NCBI GenBank assembly: GCA_013298365.1
Contig: JAAFHL010000006.1
Location: 1-36,477, forward strand
From: Bacteroidota bacterium
Lineage (GTDB): Bacteria; Bacteroidota; Bacteroidia; J057
Length of the DNA: 36,477 nucleotides
Direction: 5' to 3'
Each line of letters begins with the position of its first letter. Position 1 is the first letter of the stretch. This document shows positions 674-7,499 of this stretch, piece after piece. The translations under genes were made by a program, and so were the position numbers. Under the pieces are notes generated by a model that saw only the letters and a list, made by a program, of their open reading frames with translations, did not search any database and was not told where the DNA came from.

Positions 674-2728
674 TTATCTTCTCAAAGCCTTCAATTCTTC
701 TACTTTTGCAAGCACTTCGCTACGTGGCATATCTCTAAAACGAGGCGGCAACAATTCCTTAGAAGTACATTCCAAAATAGCCGCATAGTTCATCAATTCG
801 ATTTCTTCGGGATAGGTAGGCGGCAAAAAGTCGCCAAAAACTTGCGCTACAATATCAAAATTCACTTTTTCTAAACCCAAACTTGCTGCCTTAAATTTCG
901 CTCTTGTAAGGGCGGCTTCCATATCAGCGCCCGATTTTACGGTCATATCTTCAAAAAATTCCTCGTCAAATTCGTCTAAATTCATGTATTCCAAATCTGT
1001 TTTTTTCACAACAACTTGCAAAAGCTCCTTCTTTTCCTCCAAAGTTTCAGGATAAAACAAAGCGATATGCTCCTCAGCACGTCCTTGTCGCTTAAAATCC
1101 ACAGGCAACAAATCGGGACGAGCCGTAATCAGAAACCAAATCACTTTACCCCGATTTTCGGTATTGCTCATAAAAGTCGCAATCATGGAGAAGACACGAC
1201 TGCTCACGCCACTATCGCCCGAAGCACTTCTATTGCCCAAATACGCATCTGCCTCATCTATCATCACCGCCACAGGCGACATCGCTTTGAGGATTTTCAA
1301 CACTTTTTCAAGGTTGCCTTCGGTTGCGCCCTGCCATTGCGAACGAAAATTTTTGAGCATCACCATCGGTACGCCTATGTCATTTGCGAAGCAGGAAATA
1401 AGGTAGGTTTTTCCCGTTCCCACAGGACCGGAAACCAAATAACCCATCGGCATCACATCTGGACGACCTGCTTTGAGGGCGGTTGCCGCTTCCATCAAAT
1501 TCTTTTTGGCGTAGGCATGTCCCGCAACATTGGCAAGGTTATATTTGGTTTGAATAAACTCTAACAAACCACCAGACTCGCTTTCAATCATTTCTTTTTT
1601 CTTGAAAACCAGCTCTTTATTGGTAAAAATAATTTTATTTTCGGCGGCTTCTGCCAACAAAATTTTGAGTTGTACCAGTTTCAAACCTGCTGTATTTTTT
1701 GCCAAAACTGCTGGTGGCATTTCAAAATATTGAGCGGCATCAGTCCTTTCTTGCAAGAAATTCTGAATAAATGCCAGCCTGTCTTCTTCTTCTGGGTACG
1801 GAATTAAGACCTCATACGTATATGGATTCTTGACATATTGCTGATTGATTTCCGAAATATTTTCGGTCAAAACGCAAGTAATCATATTCGGGCTTTTGAA
1901 ACGCTCATCTGTTGCCCATTTTTGCAAGAAAATAAGGGAAAGACGCTCATCATTTCTCGCATTATTTGCCTCTGACATTGGAATCAAAGTCTCTGCATAT
2001 TCGATAATAAAGGCAACTCTTTTGGGTTTTGCAACACTTGCCTTCAAAAAATCCGCTAATCTTTGGGCATCATTCGACTTCAAAGGCGTGTCTTTTGTCG
2101 CAGGTTTATTGCCCTTTTCATTATTATCCATATATTGAAGCAAATGCCCAATATGCCCATCTATCAATTTTTGCTCCGCCTCATCAAACCAATTTCCTAC
2201 TTTTTTGGTCAAAGAAGGATTTTGGACTTGTGCTTGCGGTTTCGGCTTGTCTTTTTGGTCCAAATAAGAAATCAAATGATTGACAAATTCCTTGTTAAAG
2301 CACAACATAAAATACGCATTCAACGCCAAAAATGCTCGTTCAGGGTCGCTTGTCAGCGCAGAATAGTTATTGCCCGAAACTTGGTCAAAAATTTCCAAAG
2401 TAGTTTTGAAATCTTGGCGCATTTTCCCTGCCCCTCCAAACTGCATGTCATCTCTAAAACGAATGCCCATTGCCCTATCATAATGCACGATAATGTCATA
2501 ATATTTGAACATTTCGTCATTCAGAAAGTCCTTGACTTTCATATACTTAGCCTTCCCATCTTCTTTGATAGGAATATATTCATTGATGTTTCCATGCAAA
2601 ATAAATTGCGAAACATTTTGCGAAAGGTATTTGCGTTTGATAGCCTGCGCCCATTCAGGCACCTCCAATTTGCGCTGCGGCGGCGGTGTAGGCGTAGAAG
2701 ATTCTATTTCGATTTTGATTTCTGACAT
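674..2728 (-). CDS. AAA+ ATPase with a degenerate N-terminal AAA-like region and an intact C-terminal AAA module
   Basis: 684-aa ORF; Walker A GPVGTGKT, Walker B VAVMIDEADAYLG; N-terminal half has an AAA-like layout (FIIEYAETLIP) but no P-loop. Confidence 0.85.
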   Translation of the reverse strand: MSEIKIEIESSTPTPPPQRKLEVPEWAQAIKRKYLSQNVSQFILHGNINEYIPIKEDGKAKYMKVKDFLNDEMFKYYDIIVHYDRAMGIRFRDDMQFGGAGKMRQDFKTTLEIFDQVSGNNYSALTSDPERAFLALNAYFMLCFNKEFVNHLISYLDQKDKPKPQAQVQNPSLTKKVGNWFDEAEQKLIDGHIGHLLQYMDNNEKGNKPATKDTPLKSNDAQRLADFLKASVAKPKRVAFIIEYAETLIPMSEANNARNDERLSLIFLQKWATDERFKSPNMITCVLTENISEINQQYVKNPYTYEVLIPYPEEEDRLAFIQNFLQERTDAAQYFEMPPAVLAKNTAGLKLVQLKILLAEAAENKIIFTNKELVFKKKEMIESESGGLLEFIQTKYNLANVAGHAYAKKNLMEAATALKAGRPDVMPMGYLVSGPVGTGKTYLISCFANDIGVPMVMLKNFRSQWQGATEGNLEKVLKILKAMSPVAVMIDEADAYLGNRSASGDSGVSSRVFSMIATFMSNTENRGKVIWFLITARPDLLPVDFKRQGRAEEHIALFYPETLEEKKELLQVVVKKTDLEYMNLDEFDEEFFEDMTVKSGADMEAALTRAKFKAASLGLEKVNFDIVAQVFGDFLPPTYPEEIELMNYAAILECTSKELLPPRFRDMPRSEVLAKVEELKALRR

Positions 2729-2744
2729 AATTTATCGTAAAAAA

Positions 2745-2796
2745 ATTTGATATGGCAAATGTAATAAGATTTAAGGAATATTTGCAAGGCTTTTGT
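2745..2796 (-). promoter_or_regulatory. Copy 1 of exact 52-bp direct repeat; predicted promoter of the AAA ATPase gene
   Basis: Minus strand reads TTG-N21-TACATTTG, matching the Bacteroidetes -33/-7 (TAnnTTTG) pattern, ending 16 bp before the AAA ATG. Confidence 0.7.
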
Positions 2797-2811
2797 TGTG
2801 CAAAAAACAAC

Positions 2812-3900
2812 TTATATAGTAGGTGTTTGTGTGGCATTTTCATACAATTCAAACAGCTCATGCAATTTGACTTGTAATACTTTTTTATCAATCAATTTTC
2901 GTTGATATTCAGCCACTAACGTAGGCGAAAGATGCCTACTCAAGGCATATTCCACAACTTGCGCATCTTTTGTAGGGCAAAGTAAAATGCCAATACTGGG
3001 ATTCTCATGCGTTTTTTTTATGTCTCTGTCTAAGGCTTCCAAATAAAAACTCAATTTACCTAAATGTTCTGGCTCAAATTCTACTACTTTTAGTTCAATT
3101 GCCACCAGACAACTCAAACCCCTATGAAAAAAAAGCAAGTCTAAGTAGTAATCATGTATTCCTACTTGTACTTTATATTCTTCTCCAATAAACACAAAAT
3201 CATTTTCTAACTCCAAAATAAAGTCTTTCATGTTTTGGATTAATGCTTTTTGTAAATCTTTTTCATTATAATAAGTAGGCAGATTCAAAAACTCAATAAC
3301 ATAATTATCCTTAAAAACACCCCTTAAATTTTGTGATTGGGGCAGGCTTTTTAAGCCTTCAAATATTTCTATATCTGTGAGCATAAAACGCTCAAAAATA
3401 CTGGTTTGAATTTGTCTTTTGAGTTGTTTTACTGTGTACCTTTCCTTGATAGTCAAATAGATATAAAAAACTCTTTCTTCCAAAGTTTTACAGCCCGCAA
3501 GAATTTCTAAATGATGCGTCCAAGTAATTTTGCTTAAAAATAATATTACACTTTTATAATTATCTATTAAATGAAATTGTGTCATTTTCAACCCCACTAT
3601 TTCATTTTTTAGATATTTCTCATTTTCAAGACAATAATAGGTTTCATAAAAACGCAACATTCTGTATAAATTTCGTTTATCAAACCCTTTTAAACTTGCG
3701 TGCTTGTGTGTCAAATATTCCGACAAATCATTTATAATCTTATCGCCTTTGCGTGAGTTAACCAATTTTTCACTCAAATACTTCCCAATTTCCCAATGCA
3801 AAGTAATAAGTTCTACATTTACTGCCCTAAACGAATTTTCTTTCGCTTTTTGAATCAGTTCCTCTATGGCTAAGAAATCTATTTCTATTGAATTTGACAT
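2812..3900 (-). CDS. DUF1016/YhcG-family PD-(D/E)XK nuclease-like protein
   Basis: ORF with N-terminal DUF1016-like region (LHWEIGKYLSEK...GFDKRNLYRMLRFYETY) and C-terminal YYLDLLFFHRGLSCLVAIELK nuclease signature; start taken at MSNSIEIDF rather than the longer ORF start at 3966. Confidence 0.85.
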   Translation of the reverse strand: MSNSIEIDFLAIEELIQKAKENSFRAVNVELITLHWEIGKYLSEKLVNSRKGDKIINDLSEYLTHKHASLKGFDKRNLYRMLRFYETYYCLENEKYLKNEIVGLKMTQFHLIDNYKSVILFLSKITWTHHLEILAGCKTLEERVFYIYLTIKERYTVKQLKRQIQTSIFERFMLTDIEIFEGLKSLPQSQNLRGVFKDNYVIEFLNLPTYYNEKDLQKALIQNMKDFILELENDFVFIGEEYKVQVGIHDYYLDLLFFHRGLSCLVAIELKVVEFEPEHLGKLSFYLEALDRDIKKTHENPSIGILLCPTKDAQVVEYALSRHLSPTLVAEYQRKLIDKKVLQVKLHELFELYENATQTPTI

Positions 3901-3909
3901 GGAATTGCT

Positions 3910-3961
3910 ATTTGATATGGCAAATGTAATAAGATTTAAGGAATATTTGCAAGGCTTTTGT
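3910..3961 (-). promoter_or_regulatory. Copy 2 of the exact 52-bp direct repeat; predicted promoter of the DUF1016 gene
   Basis: Identical over 52 bp to 2745-2796; contains TTG-N21-TACATTTG on the minus strand, 9 bp before the ATG at 3900. Confidence 0.7.
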
Positions 3962-4021
3962 CGCATGGAGGCTAGGAATTGTTACAAAAAAGTGGAAAGG
4001 ATGGCACGCTAGCAGCGTTAG

Positions 4022-4087: not shown

Positions 4088-4687
4088 ATGGCATACAGTA
4101 AATTTACTTTTTTGAAAGTGAGAGAAGAACCTGGGGTAGAAGATAAATATCAGTTATTATTTACTGAAATTGAGCCACTTCTGCCGAGTGATTGGTTACT
4201 AACTACCTTAAAAATGGGGAAAAATGTAGCATTTTTTAGTGAAAAATCTCGCTCAGAGGCAATTGTTTTTCCTATTTTAGTAGAATTGCAAAATCAAAAC
4301 CAAGGCAGATTTTCTATTTACTCTGGAGCAGATTTAGATGCTGATAGTCAAAAAGAATTAAATGGAGAATGTGATTTTATTTTGGGTTATGGCGAGCAAA
4401 AATATGATTTGGACAGCCCTATTTTTTGTATGATAGAAGCAAAAGACCAAGACCTCAAAAAAGCACTGCCGCAATGTATCGCACAAATGGAAGGCGCACG
4501 TATCTTTAATCAAAAACATGGAAAAAATAGGGACGAGATTTGGGGCTGTGTTACAACTGGCTCTGAATGGTTATTTCTGAAATTACAAAATCATTTGGTT
4601 TTTATTGATACAGAAAGATACTATTTGAAAAATTTGGGAGAATTGTTGGGCATTTTGCAATATATTGTGAATCAATATAAATCGTAG
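4088..4687 (+). CDS. PD-(D/E)XK nuclease-like protein, paralogue A
   Basis: GECDFILG...SPIFCMIEAKDQD...QCIAQMEGARIFN; D-x(n)-ExK plus Q-helix pattern; start at MAYSKF. Confidence 0.65.
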   Translation: MAYSKFTFLKVREEPGVEDKYQLLFTEIEPLLPSDWLLTTLKMGKNVAFFSEKSRSEAIVFPILVELQNQNQGRFSIYSGADLDADSQKELNGECDFILGYGEQKYDLDSPIFCMIEAKDQDLKKALPQCIAQMEGARIFNQKHGKNRDEIWGCVTTGSEWLFLKLQNHLVFIDTERYYLKNLGELLGILQYIVNQYKS

Positions 4688-4783: not shown

Positions 4784-5392
4784 ATGGCATACGGCAAATT
4801 TACTTCATTAGTCAAATTTTGTAATACTTATCATTTACAAATTAACACAAGAACTAATATATTTGAGGGAGTTGCGTTCCCTGATTTTACGATTAGTGAA
4901 CATTTGGAAAGAGATATTAGAGAAGGTAAGGAGTTTCCTTTATACACAGAAAAAGCGAAATCAGAATTATTAATTTTGCCTATTTTGAAGGAATTAAAGC
5001 GAAAAAATCCCTTTATTTCTGTTTTTTCGGGTTTTTCGTTGAACATAGAAGGACAATCAGAGCTTAATGGCAATCCCGATTTTGTATTGAGCGCAAATGA
5101 CAATAAAGTAGAGATAGAAGCCCCCATTTTTTGTTTATTAGAAAGTAAAAATAATGCGCCTGACATAGGATTTGCGCAATGTGCCGCAGAGATGTATGCC
5201 GCTAAATTATTCAATACGGAAATGGGAACGCCACAAGAAACTATTTATGGTGCAGTTACAAATGCCTACGATTGGGTGTTTTTGCGCTTGACAGGCGATT
5301 GTGTTTGGATTGATATGGAACGCTATTATTTGAACGATTTGAATAAATTGTTGGGCATTTTGCAATATATTGTTAATCAATATAAAAAATAA
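4784..5392 (+). CDS. PD-(D/E)XK nuclease-like protein, paralogue B
   Basis: NPDFVLS...APIFCLLESKNN...QCAAEMYAAKLFN; shares start MAY(S/G)KFT and the C-terminus LLGILQYIVNQYK with paralogue A. Confidence 0.65.
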   Translation: MAYGKFTSLVKFCNTYHLQINTRTNIFEGVAFPDFTISEHLERDIREGKEFPLYTEKAKSELLILPILKELKRKNPFISVFSGFSLNIEGQSELNGNPDFVLSANDNKVEIEAPIFCLLESKNNAPDIGFAQCAAEMYAAKLFNTEMGTPQETIYGAVTNAYDWVFLRLTGDCVWIDMERYYLNDLNKLLGILQYIVNQYKK

Positions 5393-5420: not shown

Positions 5421-7499
5421 TTAAATCCCCATTTTTATCGGCTCTGCAACAGGCAAAGCAGGTTTTTCAGGTTTGTCTTTATATTTCCATTCCATGCCTT
5501 CCAATTTTTGCTCCTTAAAAAGCACTTCATGTATGGGCAAATATTCCCCTTGTGGTTTCGATTTAAAAATAATTTTTTTGGCTTGATTATTTTCCAAGAA
5601 AACAAACATCTCTTGCGAAGTAGATTTATTCATGCCTTGATAACCTTTTTTCTCGTCTTTGATATAATAAATACTCTCACTATTGCCTACAACATGCAGA
5701 CGAATGAGTTTATTGTCTCGAAATTTGCAGCGAAATTGTCGCCCTTTGATTTGATTGAAACCAATCGTATCTTGGGCTGCCACCAAAAAACAATTTCCAA
5801 TAACTGCCAAGGAATCTATCTTTTTATTGCGCATATAAATCTTGATAGTGTCGCCCGAAAGCTGCGAAGAGTCTGACCATAAAGTTGGCTTTTTGTACAA
5901 AATAATCACCGAATCGCTGTACGCATATACCATAGAATCGGCAACGGCTTGCAAGTCTTTCATGTACATACGCACATGATGATAGGCTTTAAAAGTACGT
6001 CTTTTGAGGGTATCTTCTCTTGCATATAGCGTATCTGCAAGGACATACAAGGTATCTTTGTCAAATTTTTGGAGGGAAATAGGGTTTCGAGTCATATAAG
6101 TCTCATTTGTTTCGCGAAAAAACAGGGCATGACCGCCCCAAATACTAAGGCTACTGTCTTTATCTACAATTTTTACCTTGCCATCAGCCGTTCCTGTATT
6201 GTTTTTGTTATTAAAAGTGGTTGTATCTGCCCAAATTGTGTAAGAACTGTCTTTTTGCTTAATCAAAACCTCGTCCCAAGCCATGCCACTGTCTTCTTTA
6301 TTGTTAAAATTCGCCTTTTTTGACCAAACCATATAAGAGCTATCTTTATTGCAAATAAACACATTTCCTTGTGCATTTCCTGTCTCTGCTTTGTTGTCGA
6401 AAGTAGCCTCATCTGCCCACATACGATAACTGCTATCTTTTTGAATCATGAACAAATGCCCCCACGCACGTCCTGTGTTATTTTTGTTATCGAAACTTGT
6501 GGTATCTGCCCAAACCGTATATGATTTATCTTTTTTACGAATGATAACATCATTCCATGCCATGCCTGTCTCATTTTTTTTGTCAAATTTTCCTTGTTTT
6601 GCCGTCAAAATAGAACTGCTATCTTTCTGAATCATGACCACATTTCCTTGCATATTTCCTTTTTGTGTAGTTCTGTTATAGTCTGCGGAATCGGAATAAA
6701 CCGTCATAGAACTATCCAATTGTCGCATAAATACATTTCCTACCATGGTAGCAATTTTGGTAGAATCGTCATAATCGGTAAAATCTGCCTCTAACACATA
6801 GTCTTTATTGACCACTTTTGTACGACTTTCCAAATTCATTTTCTTGGTTCGGGTTTCATACGTACCTTTTTGCGTATCAAACTCCCCATCTTCACTTTTT
6901 ATGTGTGTATAAGCCATAAAAATAGCCGTTTCATTTCTTGTGTCATAGCCCAAAGTATCGGTAGTGAGGGTATAATCTTTGTTTACCAATTTCACATTTT
7001 TCTTAAAATATGCCATTTCTTTGTTCGGATAATAGTATCCTTGCTGACTTGTAAGCGTATTTTCAGCATTAACTAACTTGCCGCCTGTCAAGTACTTACC
7101 ATAATTTTCTGCCCGATAAAAGGTGAGTTTTTCGCTTGTCAAAACCACTTTTCCATCAGCAACTTTGGCATTTCCCATCGCATCAGCCACTTTTGTGTTG
7201 CCGTCATAGTCCATGCGGTTGCAGGTAAGATTCACATTTTGTGGCATTTCTGCTCGCACATGTTGATAGGCTTGAAAAGTATTGTTACTCACGTCATAAT
7301 GTGCGCTGTCGCAATAAAAAGTAGTGCCGTCATGCGAAATGACGACATTTCCGATAAGGCGTTGCGTTTCTAGCCCGCCATTTATTTCGTATATCAAATC
7401 ATCGCTATTGATTATCTGAACCAATTTAGATTCTTGGGCAAATAGCATTGAATAGCAAGTTATTAAAATAATAAATAATGTCTTTTTCATATATTTCAC
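5421..7499 (-). CDS. OstA/LptA-like outer-membrane biogenesis protein with central tandem repeats
   Basis: 692 aa with signal peptide; N-terminus resembles OstA-like domain (LIGNVVISHDGTTFYCDSAHYD...NTFQAYQHVRA); alternate start MKKTLF possible. Confidence 0.8.
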   Translation of the reverse strand: MKYMKKTLFIILITCYSMLFAQESKLVQIINSDDLIYEINGGLETQRLIGNVVISHDGTTFYCDSAHYDVSNNTFQAYQHVRAEMPQNVNLTCNRMDYDGNTKVADAMGNAKVADGKVVLTSEKLTFYRAENYGKYLTGGKLVNAENTLTSQQGYYYPNKEMAYFKKNVKLVNKDYTLTTDTLGYDTRNETAIFMAYTHIKSEDGEFDTQKGTYETRTKKMNLESRTKVVNKDYVLEADFTDYDDSTKIATMVGNVFMRQLDSSMTVYSDSADYNRTTQKGNMQGNVVMIQKDSSSILTAKQGKFDKKNETGMAWNDVIIRKKDKSYTVWADTTSFDNKNNTGRAWGHLFMIQKDSSYRMWADEATFDNKAETGNAQGNVFICNKDSSYMVWSKKANFNNKEDSGMAWDEVLIKQKDSSYTIWADTTTFNNKNNTGTADGKVKIVDKDSSLSIWGGHALFFRETNETYMTRNPISLQKFDKDTLYVLADTLYAREDTLKRRTFKAYHHVRMYMKDLQAVADSMVYAYSDSVIILYKKPTLWSDSSQLSGDTIKIYMRNKKIDSLAVIGNCFLVAAQDTIGFNQIKGRQFRCKFRDNKLIRLHVVGNSESIYYIKDEKKGYQGMNKSTSQEMFVFLENNQAKKIIFKSKPQGEYLPIHEVLFKEQKLEGMEWKYKDKPEKPALPVAEPIKMGI
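6105..6746 (-). repeat. About seven 30-31-aa tandem repeats within the OstA-like protein
   Basis: Units such as MAWNDVIIRKKDKSYTVWADTTSFDNKNNTG / RAWGHLFMIQKDSSYRMWADEATFDNKAETG / MAWDEVLIKQKDSSYTIWADTTTFNNKNNTG. Confidence 0.85.

Follow-up and report, generated by a model that had tools for sequence, protein, structure and literature searches.

Probable insertion of a DUF1016/YhcG-type gene and duplication of a 52-bp core promoter upstream of a conserved AAA ATPase gene in a Bacteroidota genome

How did a DUF1016/YhcG-type gene and the AAA ATPase gene beside it come to lie behind identical 52-bp segments? The question is raised by contig JAAFHL010000006.1 (assembly GCA_013298365.1) of a Bacteroidota bacterium, of which positions 1 to 36,477 were analysed (36,477 nucleotides, hereafter the window). 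The direct repeat reported in the original prediction is exact: its copies occupy positions 2745-2796 and 3910-3961, are spaced 1165 bp from start to start, and match each other far beyond chance. It had been asked whether the 52-mer might simply be a common repeat of the source genome. A search of that genome (5.09 Mb in 630 contigs), with up to three mismatches permitted, returned just these two copies, both at this locus, and none on the other strand; the reversed 52-mer, used as a control, gave zero matches. Twelve further genomes of the family did not contain the 52-mer either. We therefore rejected a dispersed repeat, there being no third copy in genome or family; an RNA element was likewise rejected, since the window gave no Rfam match and the segment no notable fold. 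At 52 bp the repeat is also much longer than the usual transposon target duplications. The locus is known from one assembled contig.

The minus strand of the 52-mer, on which both genes are read, carries TTG-N21-TACATTTG, and the end of the -7 box lies 20 nt from the ATG of the DUF1016 gene and 27 nt from that of the AAA gene. This is the arrangement of a Bacteroidota primary-sigma promoter, with a TAnnTTTG -7 box and a TTG about 20 nt upstream, near a start codon; TAnnTTTG is the -7 consensus published for flavobacteria, members of the same phylum (PMC9723704). The resemblance to a Bacteroidetes promoter suspected from the letters alone is thus real, and it holds near both start codons. In the window the looser pattern TTG-N17-23-TANNTTTG has 28 occurrences, whereas sequence simulated with matching dinucleotide composition would have about 10; the plus-strand genes at 4088 and 4784 also carry it, at distances of 23 and 24 nt from the gene start. 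With 9 nt before the -33 element and 11 nt after the -7 box, the duplicated 52 bp approximate a minimal core promoter. Both genes would be transcribed from their 52-bp copies, copy 1 (3910..3961, minus strand; -33 TTG, 21-nt spacer, -7 TACATTTG) now standing before the DUF1016 gene and copy 2 (2745..2796, minus strand) serving as the core promoter of the AAA gene.

The DUF1016 gene (2812..3900, minus strand) specifies a protein of 362 aa in which both domains of the DUF1016/YhcG family are full length (DUF1016_N, PF17761, 3e-30; YhcG_C nuclease, PF06250, 1.4e-51) and which matches the PADLOC candidate defence family PDC-S02 (2.4e-112). It has D254 and K271, each in a column about 100% conserved among 166 aligned sequences; with the acidic and lysine residues of the PD-(D/E)XK core retained, it is a predicted nuclease. 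Its place under a captured promoter beside an AAA gene is particular to this locus. The longest mechanical open reading frame begins at 3966, past the repeat; we take the start to be 3900, 9 nt after the repeat, because this fits both the domain start and the promoter. The claim that the repeat lies immediately upstream of both genes stands with this small correction. Between the copies are 1113 bp (2797..3909, minus strand), the inferred insert, made up of 9 nt before the ORF, the 1089-bp ORF including its stop codon, and 15 nt after it. The repeat-to-repeat unit is, as had been proposed, essentially the gene: the insert holds an ORF and 24 nt, nothing more, and has no transposase, integrase or terminal inverted repeats. 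The ORF is AT-rich (GC 0.309 and GC3 0.278, against 0.410 and 0.419 in the AAA gene), and its best relatives, about 45-52% identical, are scattered over phyla and plasmids, from which we read the gene as a horizontal arrival. At the seven other DUF1016 places in the source genome, no exact flanking repeat of at least 16 bp was detected. One copy there (L006/L409; C390) is 67% identical over the nuclease domain and broken by frameshifts and stops, so that genes of this type also decay in the source genome; elsewhere (L404; C92) two tandem DUF1016 genes lie about 1 kb apart, without recognisable flanking repeats.

The gene in front of which the insertion lies (674..2728, minus strand; 684 aa; PF00004, 3.8e-24) is a conserved AAA ATPase gene with clear orthologs across the family and order. 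Comparison with relatives, the check suggested at the outset, found the AAA gene alone: no DUF1016 gene lay beside the orthologs within the flank examined, up to 1.5 kb, and the two congeners gave zero DUF1016 matches at E<=1e-20. The upstream regions of the AAA gene in these two congeners retain a TTACTTTTG box and are otherwise diverged. Their promoters are identical to the 52-mer at 23 and 22 of 52 positions, weakly above the 16-21 of unrelated promoters, which is only suggestive as to whether the promoter was the AAA gene's own; the regions are too diverged to prove the prior state of the window site.

We surveyed DUF1016 loci of the phylum by gapped self-comparison, scoring direct repeats that straddle the gene within 600 bp at E<1e-6. 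Such repeats flank 17 of 133 DUF1016 genes and 2 of 145 neighbouring ORFs (Fisher p 1e-4), the two latter belonging to a single DUF1016 locus. Four loci (L094, L164, L168 and L175) may represent dispersed or palindromic repeats; without them the count is 13/133, still far above the neighbours. The counts slightly exceed the number of independent events, since one insertion is represented twice, by L156 and L159 from two species, and L208 and L209 appear to be a second pair of this kind. The repeats range from 52 to 215 bp with 75-100% identity, the window repeat being the shortest of the 17 and alone in having zero differences between its copies. In many cases the repeat is part of an adjacent gene. 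It comes from the 3' end at L125 (gdhA), L122 (Type ISP gene), L169 (Eco57I-type methylase gene) and L083 (FKBP/cyclophilin isomerase gene), and from the 5' end at L183 (metallophosphoesterase gene) and L159/L156 (unnamed gene). At L151, two tandem DUF1016 genes, 32% identical, precede hsdS, and each lies between copies of a segment of about 190 bp. Among the insertions compared by eye, no conserved insert ends or terminal inverted repeats were seen. A small sample of about 12 DUF1016 loci outside Bacteroidota or on plasmids, E. coli yhcG included, showed no straddling repeat.

For two of these loci a single-copy empty site was found in a congener. When the flanks of the L159 insertion were joined and the genus was searched with the resulting 700 nt, one congener (L338) matched at 99% over the full length. 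The two flanks are 98.7 and 99.1% identical to it and, aligned to this empty genome, have exactly 88 bp in common; the insertion therefore measures 1365 bp, with an 88-bp target duplication whose segment is single-copy in L338. The second case is L125, a congener of which (L360) has gdhA without the insert and one copy of the gdhA 3' end.

Are such scars a hallmark of the DUF1016 nuclease? Control families led us to reject this idea, and any implication in the original prediction that the arrangement is special to this gene is not supported. ATPase genes of the DUF4143 family (PF13635) are repeat-flanked in 12 of 87 cases (neighbours 0/99). The figure for Fic genes is 3 of 46, against 0/34 of their neighbours, which is too few to reach significance by itself. 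The neighbours of both families together give 0/133, and orthologs of the AAA gene 0/17. In two of the lone mobile families tested in the phylum, DUF1016 and DUF4143, the scar is found at about 1 in 8 genes. DUF4143 may itself, we presume, contain a nuclease-like fold, which is why the Fic cases and an AbiEii-type insertion matter. The latter occurs at a hotspot within one genus (L394, L395, L396, L397 and L399), where a DUF4143 gene has been inserted between two genes that meet tail to tail, one for a THUMP-like methyltransferase and the other ppx/gppA. In many congeners the site is continuous and single-copy; others carry different DUF4143 genes, an AbiEii nucleotidyltransferase gene and its partner, or unnamed ORFs, and in several, successive genes are separated by target copies of about 110 bp. 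It seems that a target duplication, once made, may provide the homology through which more genes are added.

We consider it likely that a DUF1016 gene was inserted before the resident AAA gene with duplication of a 52-bp target, an instance of insertion with long target duplication. The AAA gene would at the start have had one copy of the core promoter, and the empty site, on the minus strand, would have read ...CATGCG, one 52-mer, TTTTTTACGATAAATT, and the ATG of the AAA gene. A mobile, lone and nearly bare DUF1016 ORF would then have entered upstream, duplicating the 52 bp; the incoming ORF would have taken the upstream copy of the promoter and the AAA gene retained the downstream one, so that a promoter was captured and the neighbour left unbroken. 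The joining most likely involved a DNA fragment and either illegitimate end-joining into a break with filled-in staggered ends or homology-assisted illegitimate recombination, and the insertions that survive may be those leaving both neighbours expressed. The geometry, the uniqueness of the repeat and the parallels at other loci are observed, whereas the first ownership of the promoter by the AAA gene, the order of events and the way in which the duplication formed are inferred. Against this reading weigh the divergence of the congeners' upstream regions, the single assembled contig and the seven other DUF1016 places of the genome, with their lack of exact flanking repeats. The suggestion that both genes were left under the same core promoter agrees with the identical 52-mers at promoter distance from each start codon, and, judged by sequence, the event looks recent. 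Loss of the 1165-bp unit by recombination between the repeats is possible from the same geometry.

Two ways of arriving at this arrangement had been put forward, duplication of the existing promoter and arrival of a promoter-plus-ORF cassette. The first is favored, because the scars at other DUF1016, DUF4143 and Fic genes are often pieces of neighbouring resident genes and because congeners show a single-copy empty site. The second would have the gene come with its own promoter, for example as a circle or fragment, and integrate by a single crossover at a matching 52-mer before the AAA gene. In its favour, the repeat coincides exactly with a core promoter and the layout is the one that a single-crossover integration would leave; in addition, the L151 pair, 32% identical genes with the same repeat, suggests that later homologous additions at existing repeats do occur. 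However, this route requires that an identical 52-mer was already present in both donor and host, and there is no third copy in genome or family; at other loci, moreover, the repeat is often part of a housekeeping gene already in place. We regard it as unlikely.

That the nuclease itself cut the target and so caused its own insertion and the duplication, in the manner of a homing enzyme, might be thought attractive given the conserved nuclease residues, the distribution over phyla and plasmids and the frequency of the scar in the DUF1016 family. Against it stand the DUF4143 ATPase genes, with the same scar rate, and the Fic genes, the AbiEii-type genes between target copies at one hotspot, and the lack of common insert ends or of a common target sequence among the cases seen; we judge such self-driven movement very improbable. 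An assembly artefact, a misjoin at a short repeat, would have to be considered in a draft genome fragmented into 630 contigs, where a 52-bp repeat can presumably fall below the assembler's k-mer length. Yet each copy is followed, at promoter distance, by an intact start codon, and equivalent scars are found in many other assemblies, in one case with an empty site whose flanks are 99% identical, which makes an artefact hardly credible.

Insertion of restriction-modification genes with long target duplication was reportedly recognized by Nobusato et al. 2000 (Gene 259:99) and Furuta et al. 2010. The window locus is one case of this known, little-studied kind of gene insertion. The phenomenon is described for restriction-modification genes in PMC1643837, PMC3874152 and PMC3031569. 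Those insertions and the present one have in common a lone gene unit without recognisable transposase or terminal repeats, direct repeats of about 50-200 bp and, in parallel cases, a repeat that is single-copy at the empty site; the window case agrees with the published accounts in repeat length, in its want of transposon ends and in its lone gene. It departs from the same accounts in that the gene is DUF1016 nuclease-like and not a complete restriction-modification system, the phylum is Bacteroidota and not that of Helicobacter, and a core promoter is what was duplicated. Homing endonuclease genes offer another analogy, as nuclease-like lone genes in a foreign context; in contrast to them, the window gene has no intein or intron context, no common target was seen, and the same scar is found in control families without the DUF1016 nuclease.

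These properties bear on how single accessory or defence-like genes move without transposase or integrase. The locus is a fresh-looking case, its repeats still identical and its duplicated target the promoter itself, and it illustrates how an almost bare ORF could gain expression immediately with the neighbour unharmed. The controlled survey suggests that the scar is common among the lone mobile genes of the phylum, and it provides numerous natural cases from which the mechanism might be worked out, some of them with exact empty sites. One could envision, as a proposition on which we are evenly divided, that long target duplication is a general, transposase-free entry route for lone accessory genes (DUF1016, DUF4143, Fic, AbiE-like) into Bacteroidota chromosomes, the duplicated segment preserving the neighbours, sometimes giving the newcomer a ready promoter, and later providing a homology pad on which arrays build up, with target copies between the genes, as seen at the Ppx/THUMP-methyltransferase site.

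Some further features were noted along the way. On an Adhaeribacter plasmid (L374, 2507-5466), a DUF1016 gene adjoins a convergent set of multiubiquitin, ThiF-type and DUF6527 genes. In the window, the insertion is next to two tandem paralogous genes (4088-4687 and 4784-5392), both matching PADLOC PDLC01472 (PD-DExK), with similar leaders and promoters and stretches that are 82% identical. Beyond them, an OstA/LptD_N-type gene (5421-7499) contains, at 6192-6667, three internal repeat copies that are 61-70% alike over 197 nt, at spacings of 186 and 93.
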